A stretch of DNA of 64,000 nt. It comes from Akkermansia sp. RCC_12PD (GTDB lineage: Bacteria; Verrucomicrobiota; Verrucomicrobiia; Verrucomicrobiales; Akkermansiaceae). This document shows, piece after piece, positions 10,215 through 46,477 of this stretch. The stretch is taken from assembly GCF_036417355.1 (NCBI RefSeq), contig NZ_CP143889.1, positions 2,418,001-2,482,000 on the forward strand, in the 5' to 3' direction. Made by a program: the position numbers and the translations under genes. How positions within the stretch are numbered: position 1 is the stretch's first letter; the number at the start of each line of letters is the position of its first letter. The notes below the pieces were generated by a model. That model was not told the DNA's origin. It searched no databases and saw only the letters and a list, made by a program, of their open reading frames with translations.

Positions 10215-10979
10215 TCAGCCGCGGCGGCGACGGCCGAGCAGGAGCCCCAATCCCAGCAGTCCGAGCGAGGCTGAGGCCGGTTCCGGAACGGCACTCAGAG
10301 CGTATTCCTTCATCTGGTCTTCTGTCAGGGCTCCCATATACAGGTCAAAGTTGTTCAGGGTATATTCCCCGGTGATCCCGTTCGGGACGCTCCAGGTATT
10401 GCCGGAACCGTCCTTGGCGGAGAAGTTGAGCTGGGTCATGGTGACGCTGCCGAACCTGACGCCGGTGCCGTTCAAAGATGCAAGAGTGGTCAGTGAAGAC
10501 GTGTCATTGCCCAGCATGGCGGAAATGGTGACATTTCCATTACTGTAAGTGTAAAACAGGGTAAGGGGCTGTTCTGCGGAATAGCCGGACAGGGTATTCG
10601 TTTTCCAGGGGGAAGCGGCAGCGGTGCCTCCGTTGTAGTTAAAGCCTCCCACGCACAGGGTAAGGTCTCCGGAATCCGTCAACTGAAAGCCCATTCCTTC
10701 CAGGTTCTTGTAGTTGGAGGTGGTGTTATAGGTGAACAGTAGGCCCACATCCGTTCCGGAGGTGGCTTCCAGACCGGAAATGGTGAATGCCATGGTCCAT
10801 GAAGTGGTTCCGCTCACCGGAACGGTGGTGGGAGAAGAGACATTCAGAGTATCTCCGTTGCTTCCGTCGTAGATGGTATAATCCTTTGAATAAGCCGGAT
10901 TCAGATCATTGATGGAAGCGCCGCAGCACAGGCTGCTTCCCAGAATGGCGGCCAGGAGGGACAGGTATTTGGTCTTCAT
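10215..10979 (-). CDS. PEP-CTERM-anchored secreted protein, LamG-like
   Basis: A 254-residue exported protein starting at the ATG at 10979, with signal peptide MKTKYLSLLAAILGSSLCCG. The middle has the beta-sandwich look of concanavalin/LamG-like domains (SWTMAFTISGLEATSG, YTLNNFDLYMGALTEDQM). The C-terminus is a PEP-CTERM sorting signal: VPEP, a glycine/leucine helix and a final RRRRG. Such tails are processed by an exosortase and are often linked to extracellular polymer or surface layers; no exosortase is in this window. A 15-bp palindrome (11039-11053) lies 60 bp upstream of the start. Confidence 0.88.
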   Translation of the reverse strand: MKTKYLSLLAAILGSSLCCGASINDLNPAYSKDYTIYDGSNGDTLNVSSPTTVPVSGTTSWTMAFTISGLEATSGTDVGLLFTYNTTSNYKNLEGMGFQLTDSGDLTLCVGGFNYNGGTAAASPWKTNTLSGYSAEQPLTLFYTYSNGNVTISAMLGNDTSSLTTLASLNGTGVRFGSVTMTQLNFSAKDGSGNTWSVPNGITGEYTLNNFDLYMGALTEDQMKEYALSAVPEPASASLGLLGLGLLLGRRRRG

Positions 10980-11038
10980 ATTGATTGCTCTAGCAGATTG
11001 GAAAAATGCTCCCGGGCAGGAGAACATCCGTTTTTTAT

Positions 11039-11216
11039 CGGATTCTTAATCCGCCAACAATTAAAAATATTAACGGTGAATGAATTATTTATCATAAAAC
11101 ATTGATTCCCATGGAAGTTTTACATATCTGGTCTTTTTTTAAATTCATTCCCCTATGATTCTCTAGTCTTTATCACTGTTTACTGAAGCGGATGTTACAG
11201 GCGGATTAAGAATTCG
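11039..11216. promoter_or_regulatory. 178-bp AT-rich module bounded by CGGATT-N3-AATCCG palindromes
   Basis: The left palindrome CGGATTCTTAATCCG (11039-11053) is perfect 6-3-6; the right one (11202-11216, CGGATTAAGAATTCG) has one mismatch. In between lie CATTGAT (11100-11106), then after 22 bases TGGTCTTTTTTT (11129-11140). The same elements at the same spacing occur at 44269-44448 before another PEP-CTERM gene. Here, however, the corresponding orientation points away from the minus-strand PEP-CTERM gene, and no gene follows on the plus side. It could be a bidirectional control region, a leftover promoter, or a small non-coding mobile element. Confidence 0.6.
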
Positions 11217-43797: not shown

Positions 43798-44268
43798 ATG
43801 TCACAGCCCGTCACTTACACAGGAGTGGTCGCCATGGCGTCCGACCGCGGCATCGGCTACCGGGGCGCGCTGCCCTGGCATCTGCCGGACGACCTCAAAA
43901 CCTTCAAGCGCCTCACCACGGGGCATCCCGTTCTGATGGGACGCAAAACCTATGAAAGCATCGGCAGGCCGCTCCCCGGACGGCAGAACATTGTGCTGAC
44001 CCGCGATCCGTTCTGGACGGCGGAAGGAGTGGACGTCATTCACTCCGTGGAGGAACTGGAGCGTCTGTCCCTGATGGACCCGGAAGTCATGGTCATCGGC
44101 GGTGCGGAAATCTTTTCCCTGATGATGCCGCTCATGTCCCGCATGTGGATTTCCCATGTCCGGGAGGAATACCCGGCGGATACGTGGCTACCGCCGTTTG
44201 AAGACCGTTTCCCGTCAGCAAATCTTCAGGAACAATTTGAAGGTTTTGATTTGTTTTTGCACGAATAG
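43798..44268 (+). CDS. folA: Dihydrofolate reductase
   Basis: A 156-residue NADPH-dependent reductase. Recognised from GVVAMASDRGIGYRGALPWH, LPDDLKTFKRLTTGHPVLMG, RKTYESIGRPLPGRQNIVLT and VMVIGGAEIFSLMMPL. It lies in an operon with thyA (27 bp gap). The first palindrome of the PEP-CTERM-linked module (44269-44283) begins right at its stop codon. Confidence 0.96.
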   Translation: MSQPVTYTGVVAMASDRGIGYRGALPWHLPDDLKTFKRLTTGHPVLMGRKTYESIGRPLPGRQNIVLTRDPFWTAEGVDVIHSVEELERLSLMDPEVMVIGGAEIFSLMMPLMSRMWISHVREEYPADTWLPPFEDRFPSANLQEQFEGFDLFLHE

Positions 44269-44448
44269 GGGATTCCGAATCCGTTGGCAATGGAATTTAT
44301 TGACAATAAATGTTTTATTTTTATAAAGCATTGATAATGCTTGATCTTATTAAATTATGGTCTTTTTTCGATATTCTCCCTTGTTCATGACTGTCTTGGA
44401 ATTATAAAGAGGGTGGACGACCGATCAAAAACGCGGATTCGGAATTCG
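44269..44448 (+). promoter_or_regulatory. 180-bp palindrome-bounded module upstream of a PEP-CTERM gene
   Basis: Bounded by GGGATTCCGAATCCG (44269-44283) and CGGATTCGGAATTCG (44434-44448), each one mismatch from the 6-3-6 palindrome CGGATT-N3-AATCCG. Inside are TTGACA with TATAAA after 16 bases (about 44300-44327), CATTGAT (44329-44335), TGGTCTTTTTT (44358-44368), and a second promoter TTGTTC (44381-44386) to TATAAA (44403-44408). The right palindrome ends 15 bp before the ATG, so it would be in the 5' leader. Module layout and spacing match 11039-11216. Confidence 0.65.
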
Positions 44449-44463
44449 TTACATTAACCGCGT

Positions 44464-45285
44464 ATGAAAACTGTTCTGTCCCTGATAGTTGTTCTGTGCA
44501 GTACGGCATCCTTCTCCCTGGGAGCCTCCCTGTATTATTCCGGTTCCAATGATGGCTGGTGGGAAACGGCCGGGAATTGGAAAAGGGATTCTCCTGACGG
44601 CCCCGCTTCTGCATCAAAACCTGCTACGGGAGATACCATGTACATCGGCTCCGGCGGAAATATCAACGTCAAGATAGGGAGCAACGGAGGCAGCAATACA
44701 TTCTACGGCATGAATATCAATATCGCGGAGGGGAGTACCCTGACGGTGACGACCAACGATGCGAAATTCTGGGGGTCCACCTTCACCATAGGCTCCGCGG
44801 ACGGTCTGATTTTCACAAACAATGTGTGGGGGGACTATAAAAACGGCGCTCCAGAGGTGGGCCGCCAGCCTCTTACGTTTAATCTGGGCCTGGAAGGTTC
44901 CGTAGTGTACCAGGCCAATTTCAACAATTCGTCAAGCGCCCACTTCAATTTGAACGGTTCCCTGAATATTCTGGGAGGAGGAGAATTCTCTATCCAGCGC
45001 AGGGATTTGATGACCTTCGGGACCAATGGAGATGCCTTGTCATTTGATTTTTCCAATTTTCAGGTGAGCTTTGAATCCGGGGAAGTTTCGACCCTTTATG
45101 ACCAGTCTGCAGAGCTGACCGCCACCAGAGAGGACTTGGGCAAGTACAAGCTGGTTTATGACGCCGACGGCAAGAAGCTGTATGTGGAATACGTGACGGG
45201 CTCCCAGGCCGTTCCAGAACCTTCCGTTTCTCTGCTGGGTTTCGCGTGCGTGGGTGGATTGCTGATGAGGCGCCGCCGTCAATAA
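44464..45285 (+). CDS. PEP-CTERM-anchored secreted protein
   Basis: A 273-residue exported protein. The signal peptide is MKTVLSLIVVLCSTASFSLG. The mature chain begins with a Trp-rich turn (NDGWWETAGNWKRDSPDG) and continues as repeated short beta strands (NGGSNTFYGMNINIAEGSTL, EGSVVYQANFNNSSSAHFNL), like an autotransporter-type beta-solenoid. The C-terminal sorting signal is VPEPSVSLLGFACVGG plus LLMRRRRQ. It probably ends up at the cell surface after exosortase processing. It is transcribed from the module just upstream, convergent with another PEP-CTERM gene. Confidence 0.85.
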   Translation: MKTVLSLIVVLCSTASFSLGASLYYSGSNDGWWETAGNWKRDSPDGPASASKPATGDTMYIGSGGNINVKIGSNGGSNTFYGMNINIAEGSTLTVTTNDAKFWGSTFTIGSADGLIFTNNVWGDYKNGAPEVGRQPLTFNLGLEGSVVYQANFNNSSSAHFNLNGSLNILGGGEFSIQRRDLMTFGTNGDALSFDFSNFQVSFESGEVSTLYDQSAELTATREDLGKYKLVYDADGKKLYVEYVTGSQAVPEPSVSLLGFACVGGLLMRRRRQ

Positions 45286-45387
45286 CTCGGAACTATTCGG
45301 ATAGTCTGTTCCGCGTGAATGGTTTAAATGCGGGAAGAGGCATTCATCTATCCGTGGAGCAGCCCCTGGCGAGTCCAGGCAAGTAAA

Positions 45388-45411
45388 AAAGGCGGGAAAT
45401 CTCCCGCCTTT
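45388..45411. terminator. Bidirectional terminator between two convergent PEP-CTERM genes
   Basis: Stem AAAGGCGGGA (45388-45397) with TCCCGCCTTT (45402-45411); A's precede it on the plus strand, giving a T tract for the minus-strand gene. It is 30 bp beyond the minus-strand stop. Confidence 0.85.
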
Positions 45412-45440
45412 GGAATTGATGCGACAAAACGAATTGTCCG

Positions 45441-46271
45441 TCAGAACCGTCTGCGGCGCATCAACAGCGTGCCGAGTCCAAACAGCCCCATGACGGCGGT
45501 TGCGGGTTCCGGGACGGCCATGGCTACCAGTTGAACATTTCCATCATTGTATTGCAGGCCGAATTCGCCTTCCTTGAGGTTGCTTGCATCCTGGGCGTAA
45601 GTAAGCGTATTGCCGTCGGAATCCATTACATGTAATTGGGAACCGTCAAAGTTGGAAATGGAACCGTCTCCGAAGCCGACATGTAGCATGTCAATGGAAG
45701 CAGTCAGCCCGGCTAGAGTGTAACTGCCCTTCAGAATGGTTGTTTTATCTCCAAGCCATGCCGTTCCAATAGTAACCAGGCTGTTTCCGGTCATCTGTCC
45801 GAAGTCGAAAACTGTTCCGTCCGCAACACCCATGTCAAAATTGAAATTCACTTGAGTGTTGGTTCCGAGATGCATGGAAAATGCTCCGTAATCTCCCCAT
45901 TCGGTGGCATTAAGGGTGACATAGTCTCCCAAATAGATACCTGATGCACAACTTTTCAGATCGTTTCCGGCTGTAACGGTAATAGCTGTCTGGTTGCTGG
46001 TGAACGTCTGTTTTCCGCCTTCCACGGAAAAGTCATACCCAATAAAGCCGGGGTCCTGATTGATGGGCTTGTAACCGTCTCCTGATTGAAGACTGCTCTG
46101 GGATGAATTTTTAAGGACACCCCAGTTGTTTTCTGACCAATTTCCATTCTCGCCCCCATTCCAGACGTAAACCCAGTAACCGTTGTAATTGAAGTCGGGG
46201 TGTAATACGGTAGCCGCCTGAGAGGCGGAAACGGCCATCATTGCCATGAACAGCGATAAAATCTTCTTCAT
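45441..46271 (-). CDS. PEP-CTERM-anchored secreted protein
   Basis: A 276-residue exported protein: signal peptide MKKILSLFMAMMAVSASQAA, a Trp/Asn-rich start (VYVWNGGENGNWSENNWGVL) that recalls the neighbouring PEP-CTERM protein, beta-solenoid-like strands (TVTAGNDLKSCASGIYLGDY), and a C-terminal VPEPATAVMGLFGLG plus TLLMRRRRF tail. The shared N-terminal Trp-Asn motif suggests that the two convergent genes are distant paralogues. The upstream region carries the same type of 15-bp palindromes. Confidence 0.85.
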   Translation of the reverse strand: MKKILSLFMAMMAVSASQAATVLHPDFNYNGYWVYVWNGGENGNWSENNWGVLKNSSQSSLQSGDGYKPINQDPGFIGYDFSVEGGKQTFTSNQTAITVTAGNDLKSCASGIYLGDYVTLNATEWGDYGAFSMHLGTNTQVNFNFDMGVADGTVFDFGQMTGNSLVTIGTAWLGDKTTILKGSYTLAGLTASIDMLHVGFGDGSISNFDGSQLHVMDSDGNTLTYAQDASNLKEGEFGLQYNDGNVQLVAMAVPEPATAVMGLFGLGTLLMRRRRF

Positions 46272-46307
46272 AAAAATGGTTTCTTCCTTGAACGAAAATA
46301 AATGTGT

Positions 46308-46477
46308 CGGATTTGATATCCGTTGTCAATAGATATGTTTGATAAATAGTGGTTTTTGAAAATTTAAACAAGGAATTCGCTTGTATTTCAGTATTTTCAC
46401 ATAATCTATAATTTTTATTAATCACTAAAAAAAAATAAGTAACAACAAAATGAAATCATTGCCGGATATCAAATCCG
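46308..46477 (-). promoter_or_regulatory. 170-bp palindrome-bounded module upstream of a PEP-CTERM gene
   Basis: CGGATTTGATATCCG (46308-46322) and its exact reverse complement at 46463-46477 bound a very AT-rich stretch. Both are variants of CGGATT-N3-AATCCG. On the minus strand, TTGACA immediately precedes the inner palindrome, so that palindrome would lie in the -35/-10 spacer of the gene at 46271. It is the third such module in the window, each with the two palindromes 155-165 bp apart. Confidence 0.6.

Follow-up and report, generated by a model that had tools for sequence, protein, structure and literature searches.

The fimS element of Escherichia coli is a promoter switch worked by a tyrosine recombinase at a single locus, with the promoter lying wholly inside the invertible segment, and the invertible promoters of Bacteroides include the Mpi system. 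The switches analysed here would resemble fimS in being tyrosine-recombinase promoter switches, with an enzyme that is so far a candidate, and differ from it in their number and in where the promoter appears to lie. They are, like the Bacteroides promoters, many, scattered and next to surface genes; Bacteroides has other repeat groups and another promoter motif than Akkermansia and is set apart by description (excerpts of PMC11892184). The closest described system is in Akkermansia itself. According to excerpts of one report (PMC13343947), the motif CGGATT..AATCCG of Akkermansia invertons is credited to Jiang et al. 2019, and the orientation of the cps1 inverton of A. muciniphila tracks capsule state. 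Excerpts of a second report (PMC11892184) describe the same repeat, rediscovered as group 138, with PEP-CTERM genes enriched nearby, and an Akkermansia promoter motif, 138-2, that fell below the promoter cut-off. The repeat motif, the genus and the PEP-CTERM enrichment are the same in the case presented here. However, the excerpted Akkermansia accounts place the promoter within the inverton, whereas here its -10 half appears to lie outside, with the repeat as spacer. Neither this split-promoter anatomy nor the candidate enzyme was found in the open-access literature searched, which did not cover Jiang et al. 2019; thus, the type of switch is known, and these two features seem new relative to that literature.

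The window is a 64,000-nucleotide stretch (2418001-2482000) of the genome of Akkermansia sp. RCC_12PD (G000; 3,168,262 bp in one contig). A preliminary description had reported six palindromic 15-mers, in pairs 155 to 165 bp apart, at the three PEP-CTERM genes of the window. A pattern scan found all six where they had been reported, at 11039, 11202, 44269, 44434, 46308 and 46463, with the mismatches to CGGATT-N3-AATCCG that had been claimed (0 at 11039 and 1 at each of the others; the sites at 46308 and 46463 have the form CGGAT-N5-ATCCG) and with intrapair spacings of 163, 165 and 155 bp, respectively. No further site with ≤1 mismatch was detected in the whole window, and at that limit the earlier impression that there were none elsewhere holds; at ≤2 mismatches there were 14 sites, compared to 4.2 expected. 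Dinucleotide shuffles of the window in 200-base blocks (n = 40) yielded no pairs and a mean of 0.15 sites. The interiors of the three pairs were AT-rich, as described (GC content, 0.21 to 0.31 versus 0.55 for the window). A simple pattern for PEP-CTERM-like C termini found three in the window, and a pair was present at all three, although P0001 is below threshold for PF07589. The putative invertons, the promoter-like elements discussed below and the genes next to them are as follows.

10215..10979, minus strand: PEP-CTERM gene P0003 (PF07589, 26.5 bits); inverton 1 faces P0003 and is read as ON.
11032..11037, minus strand: -10-like TAAAAA outside inverton 1, toward the gene, with TA 1 nt past the repeat and a gap of 17 bp to the -35-like box.
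11039..11216, no strand: inverton 1; repeats 11039-11053 and 11202-11216, inverted repeats CGGATTCTTAATCCG / CGGATTAAGAATTCG.
11055..11060, minus strand: -35-like TTGTTG of inverton 1; exits the left end, with TTG 7 nt inside the repeat.
44269..44448, no strand: inverton 2; repeats 44269-44283 and 44434-44448, inverted repeats.
44285..44290, minus strand: -35-like TTGCCA of inverton 2; faces left, away from P0001, and is read as OFF.
44450..44455, plus strand: -10-like TACATT on the gene side of inverton 2, outside the segment and just 8 nt ahead of the P0001 ATG.
44464..45285, plus strand: PEP-CTERM-like gene P0001; C terminus VPEPSVSLLGFACVGGLLMRRRRQ.
45441..46271, minus strand: PEP-CTERM gene P0002 (PF07589, 25.0 bits).
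46301..46306, minus strand: weak -10-like CACATT outside inverton 3; TA is absent at the expected position.
46308..46477, no strand: inverton 3; repeats 46308-46322 and 46463-46477, a perfect 15-bp inverted repeat.
46324..46329, minus strand: -35-like TTGACA of inverton 3; faces left to P0002 and is read as ON.

In the six-frame search P0001 scored 18.4 bits against PF07589, below the cut-off of 20.7, and as a protein it had no Pfam match. A longer frame for P0003, from 11027, starts too close to the predicted promoter for use.

The key feature missed in the preliminary description is that the centres of the two copies in a pair are reverse-complementary and specific to that pair. In the window the centres are CTT/AAG, CCG/CGG and TGATA/TATCA, and the copies match as inverted repeats at 14, 13 and 15 of 15 bases in pairs 1, 2 and 3, compared to 11, 12 and 12 as direct repeats. 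The whole genome contains 110 sites with ≤1 mismatch, 48 of them exact, and the reversed pattern used as a control gave 0 in both the exact and the ≤1-mismatch scans. Stretches were analysed around PEP-CTERM genes and around those listed sites that had a listed neighbour, matched exactly or were close variants; the stretches cover 92 of the 110 sites, with 98 distinct places listed and 13 listed one-mismatch sites that have no listed neighbour left out. When pairs were defined in these stretches by their arms at distances of 100 to 400 bp, the centre triplets were reverse-complementary in 46 of 50, and the remaining 4 were cross-pairings with a neighbouring or chance site. The 46 pairs take up 86 of the 92 sites, and their 6 leftover members carry 2 mismatches. 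Agreement between the copies was 34 to 45 of 46 at outer arm positions 0 to 3 and 10 to 14, without position 11. Outside the repeat it was 8 to 18 of 46 on the outer side and 23, 22 and then 2 to 16 of 46 on the inner side; since matched centres and similar arms were what the 46 pairs were selected on, part of the agreement within the repeat follows from that choice, but the drop outside it does not. The sites and their pair-specific centres are established by this comparison. A private centre that is matched at both ends is what strand exchange in the centre predicts and what operators do not. As judged from sequence, the paired 15-mers are not an operator pair but the boundaries of invertible DNA segments (invertons).

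Comparison with a relative in the same genus (G028, with 90% identity to the window in the region of inverton 2) showed that segments had been reversed at these repeats. Among 24 orthologous segments, matched by their flanks so that shared flanks are by construction, 8 were reversed between G000 and G028 with the flanks unchanged. Inverton 1 (L215 in G028) was among them, its interior having an identity of 0.97 in the reversed comparison versus 0.36 in the direct one, as was inverton 3 (L216; 0.96 reversed versus 0.54 direct); one of the 8 flips, at locus 1628123, is weak (0.63 reversed, 0.49 direct). The other 16 orthologs, inverton 2 (L195) included, were in one orientation in both genomes. 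The stretch with inverton 2 was also collinear throughout in G173 (L194) and in a MAG locus (L040). Thus, across the two Akkermansia genomes both orientations were seen for invertons 1 and 3 of the window and one orientation for inverton 2. The centre differed between G000 and G028 in 8 of the 24 orthologs and was alike at both ends in each, a count that cannot show how often centres fail to match since pairs with unmatched centres were ineligible; in inverton 3, the centre is TGA in G000 and TCA at both ends in G028. Of the 35 G028 loci, 34 were taken at exact sites or at the position corresponding to inverton 3, and the last was L195; 2 of the 35 (L181 and L182) had no pair, and 9 (L179, L180, L189, L191, L192, L212, L214, L223 and L224) had no G000 ortholog at the flank threshold. 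The protein of 43798-44268, dihydrofolate-reductase-like by reading, was 83 to 92% identical to five loci, four from Akkermansia and one from Akkermansiaceae.

The matched centres and the flipped orthologs bear on what the pairs were first taken for, "the operator or recombination signature" of a regulon, possibly with looping between the paired sites. Recombination is the half of that proposal that stands. Paired operators of a PEP-CTERM regulator acting through a DNA loop would account for paired palindromes of similar spacing near promoters, but such a regulator needs no private reverse-complementary centre for each pair, and the segments between the sites have flipped in G028; we consider this reading very improbable, and the inverted, pair-specific centres together with the flipped segments point to recombination sites rather than to looping. 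Still less probable is that the repeats are the termini of a small transposable element. Short inverted repeats around AT-rich DNA in many copies, and the nine pair-bearing G028 loci that have no match among the analysed G000 loci, could be explained in that way, but the centres vary between copies yet match within a copy, and the segments have flipped in place. Both readings were set aside on these grounds.

If the pairs bound invertons, the question is what the invertible segments carry. Unsupervised motif discovery in the interiors of the 46 pairs returned ...TcAAAAtTTT..aTTGAC, which mostly ends 2 nt short of the repeat. At inner offset -7, TTG was present at 41 of the 92 ends, each in a different one of the 46 pairs, compared to 0 to 7 at the other offsets from -30 to -3. 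When offset -8 was also allowed, exactly one end had TTG in 44 pairs, both ends in 0 and neither in 2; interiors lacking it thus fell from 5 of 46 (at -7) to 2 of 46 (at -7 or -8). The same placement was found in G113 and G047 (TTG at -7 in 16 of 20 pairs, at one end each) and in G028 (28 of 30 pairs; one end in 27 and both ends in 1), although loci in these three genomes were chosen for exact or near-exact paired sites, so that matched centres there are no test. A second motif lay outside the repeat. In G000, TA at outer offset 1 was present on 22 of 36 gene sides versus 3 of 36 other sides (Fisher, 3.7e-6), the gene sides having been set by hand from open reading frame calls after the flanks were seen, with 10 of the 46 pairs dropped because their target gene was unclear; automatic gene calls gave a weaker contrast (28/63 versus 3/24; P = 0.006). 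In G113 and G047, TA was at outer offset 1 at 16 of 40 ends, compared to 0 to 3 at other offsets, and at 13 of the 22 ends with an open reading frame of at least 150 amino acids.

In a test for an embedded promoter, the conserved interior motif was -35-like only, 2 nt from the repeat, with the TA outside. The promoter seems to be split into TTGACN, 17 bp, and TA, and the repeat would form the 17-bp spacer. The fixed place of both motifs is established by comparison between pairs and genomes; we infer that together they form a promoter and that inversion turns the gene on or off. Of the 31 pairs in which the motif was scored and the target gene was clear, 13 read as ON and 18 as OFF. TA was present both where the -35-like box faced the gene (7/13) and where it faced away (11/18), as expected of a fixed half. 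By this reading, invertons 1 and 3 would be ON and inverton 2 OFF in the window, and in G028 the OFF state is predicted for invertons 1 and 3. Beyond the TA, the -10 is poor: at offset 1, only 6 of 36 gene sides share four or more of the six bases of TATAAT. The called gene start was only 11 to 19 nt past the repeat in 10 of 36 cases, and it came before the end of the repeat in 5 of 36; with starts this close, those genes would be nearly leaderless or begin further down.

The genome scan that the preliminary description had proposed as a check revealed enrichment and not the even spread that would have spoken against it. A pair was directly upstream of 16 of the 27 G000 PEP-CTERM genes that exceed the Pfam cut-off; under a rough null expectation of 0.67% per gene, the probability of 16 of 27 is 2e-28. 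This list of 27 is incomplete, missing P0003 and at least 2 PEP-CTERM-like proteins with invertons (beside 663154 and 789698), and P0001 is below its cut-off. No degenerate pairs were found at relaxed limits upstream of the 11 PEP-CTERM genes without a pair, and 3 of these 11 (664307, 1207546 and 2982985) begin where a pair-bearing PEP-CTERM gene ends or immediately after it. By reading, 21 of the 46 pairs face a PEP-CTERM-like gene, and the other 25 face other or unnameable genes. When ten of these other targets were compared with Pfam, five could be named by matches over or near the cut-off and five had no match; the named ones are an autotransporter (PF03797), a glycosyltransferase, a Sel1-repeat protein, an ankyrin-repeat protein and a sub-threshold outer-membrane barrel. 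A recombinase gene is also among the genes faced by invertons. The link to PEP-CTERM genes is therefore strong but neither universal nor exclusive. With 11 of 27 such genes lacking a direct upstream pair and 25 of 46 pairs facing something else, the "unrecognised PEP-CTERM regulon" that had been proposed is not the right description; nor is it unrecognised, since the motif and its PEP-CTERM enrichment are already in print (excerpts of PMC13343947 and PMC11892184).

We propose, with a probability of about 0.82, that each of these elements is an inverton with a split promoter, flipped by a site-specific recombinase, that switches a surface-protein gene. Each pair would bound an invertible segment (140 to 150 bp from repeat to repeat in the window), which would flip when a site-specific recombinase exchanges strands in the 3-bp centre of the 15-bp repeats. 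Of the promoter, the segment would carry only the upstream half, made up of a -35-like TTGAC box and an A+T-rich tract at one of its ends, and the -10 half would stay fixed outside, 1 nt past the gene-side repeat. One orientation would bring the halves together at ∼17 bp, with the repeat as spacer, and the surface-protein gene would be read; in the other orientation it would not. PEP-CTERM and other envelope genes would then switch independently, cell by cell.

In order to identify a candidate for the recombinase, the proteins of G000 were searched with Pfam models. There were nine PF00589 proteins, and no PF00239 match, as a serine invertase would give, was found at an E value of 0.001. Five of the nine form a family, A1, whose members are 35 to 46% identical to the first member and all exceed the PF00589 cut-off. 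The motifs GIRP, KTGG, LRHT, MGH and RY are invariant in all five, with Asp in place of the first box-II His, and we take them to hold the conserved R, K, R, H and Y of tyrosine recombinases. Two NCBIfam "tyrosine-type DNA invertase" models, presumably of the FimB/FimE type, did not match 4 of the 5 A1 members at an E value of 0.001. One member of the family stands out.

About 108733-109824 of G000: gene for the L038 protein, a family A1 member.

Exact sites number 37 to 88 in 11 of 20 Akkermansia genomes, 11 in G144 and 0 to 4 in the other 8, compared to 0 to 5 in 125 genomes of the family's other genera, and A1 members are present in all 20. In 9 of the 11 site-rich genomes the top A1 hit is an intact protein 90 to 99% identical to L038, and in G000 itself L038 ranks second. 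The best A1 hit scores at least 532 bits in each site-rich genome versus at most 447 bits in the genomes with few sites. The L038-type frame is intact in G055 and G063, the reported stop being upstream of the start. G063 has 74 exact sites, four PF00589 proteins in all, and a single A1 member. G132, with 88 sites, has no close L038 ortholog, and its best A1 member is of another type (L033, 81%); thus, either another enzyme can act as well, or the assignment is mistaken. Most inverton-rich genomes, G000 and G028 among them, seem to be close relatives, so the co-occurrence may reflect shared ancestry. The L038-type A1 protein is a candidate master invertase, by association and not by proof. Among the 30 loci listed, an inverted-repeat pair of this shape lies at or across the gene start in 9 of 16 non-L038 A1 loci (one of which, L242, gave no frame), 0 of 10 L038-type loci and 0 of 4 outgroup loci, and the A1 paralogs may switch themselves.

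Species with few CGGATT sites might spell the repeat differently. A loose pattern was about twice as frequent as its reversed control in 2 of 9 few-site genomes (G144 and G002); in the other 7 it was close to the control or lower, and imperfect pairs adjoin recombinases in G084, G002 and G124. The variant AGGATT..AATCCT has 3 exact sites in G000, two of which form a pair beside recombinase L035; such a pair lies just upstream of one recombinase type in G000 (L035), G028 (L250) and G078 (L253).

Two components of the split-promoter switch could be explained otherwise. These could be ordinary invertons with the whole promoter inside; the TTGAC at the edge would then be a chance occurrence or an accessory contact for the recombinase, and the outer TA would be unrelated. 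The AT-rich interiors, some called gene starts very close to the repeat, and the inverton-embedded promoters of which excerpts of PMC11892184 speak all fit such an arrangement. An accessory contact at symmetric sites does not explain why TTG is at one fixed offset and nearly always at one end, and TA at the matching place is far commoner on the gene side; that motif 138-2 missed the promoter cut-off (excerpts of PMC11892184) is what half a promoter might do. On this evidence a promoter wholly inside the segment seems unlikely. Somewhat less doubtful, though still improbable, is that the invertase is XerC/XerD or another integrase and not a member of family A1. At least two Xer-like proteins, as judged by size and score, are present in each of G063, G132, G028 and G055; one adjoins an inverton in G000 (L031), and orthologs of L037 occur in some inverton-rich genomes. 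However, L037 orthologs, at 92 to 93% identity, are found in only 3 of 10 other inverton-rich genomes, and inverted-repeat pairs mark the starts of 9 of 16 non-L038 A1 genes, yet the L038 type itself has none in 10. We infer that the Akkermansia tyrosine-recombinase family A1 is the likely agent of the flipping, with exchange presumably in the centre of the repeats.

A wider scheme is possible, but we hold it only tentatively and rather doubt it as a whole. The split-promoter switches would operate genome-wide, RNA polymerase and invertase would compete for the 15 bp of the repeat so that transcription and flipping exclude each other, and a stable master invertase (the sole A1 member in G063) would serve dozens of sites, its paralogs lying behind inverted-repeat pairs of their own.

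Several loci in G000 depart from the simple arrangement. At L152 (G000:2147042-2148285), the same repeats are 1.23 kb apart, one of them inside a 1,316-amino-acid frame. The piece between the repeats encodes, by reading, a prepilin-like N-terminal module, and the flanks hold alternative C-terminal cassettes of 987 to 1,000 amino acids, alike at both ends and at 43 to 55% in the middle. The 1,316-amino-acid protein at G000:2147325 had no Pfam or NCBIfam match at an E value of 0.01. L152 has the appearance of a shufflon-type switch acting on a single surface protein. A third related frame, of at least 1,308 amino acids, is at L149 (G000:1900863) with a single such site; exchange between this site and the L152 repeats could invert a large part of the chromosome. 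L125 (G000:481312-481908) has two tandem invertons between two divergent genes.

If the split-promoter reading is correct, an unexplained palindrome would become a readable switch, and the ON or OFF state of each surface gene would be predictable from a single assembly. It could also explain the difficulty of confirming a promoter motif that was sought only inside the segment. Furthermore, it would name one protein as a test of how flipping is controlled in a widely studied gut bacterium.
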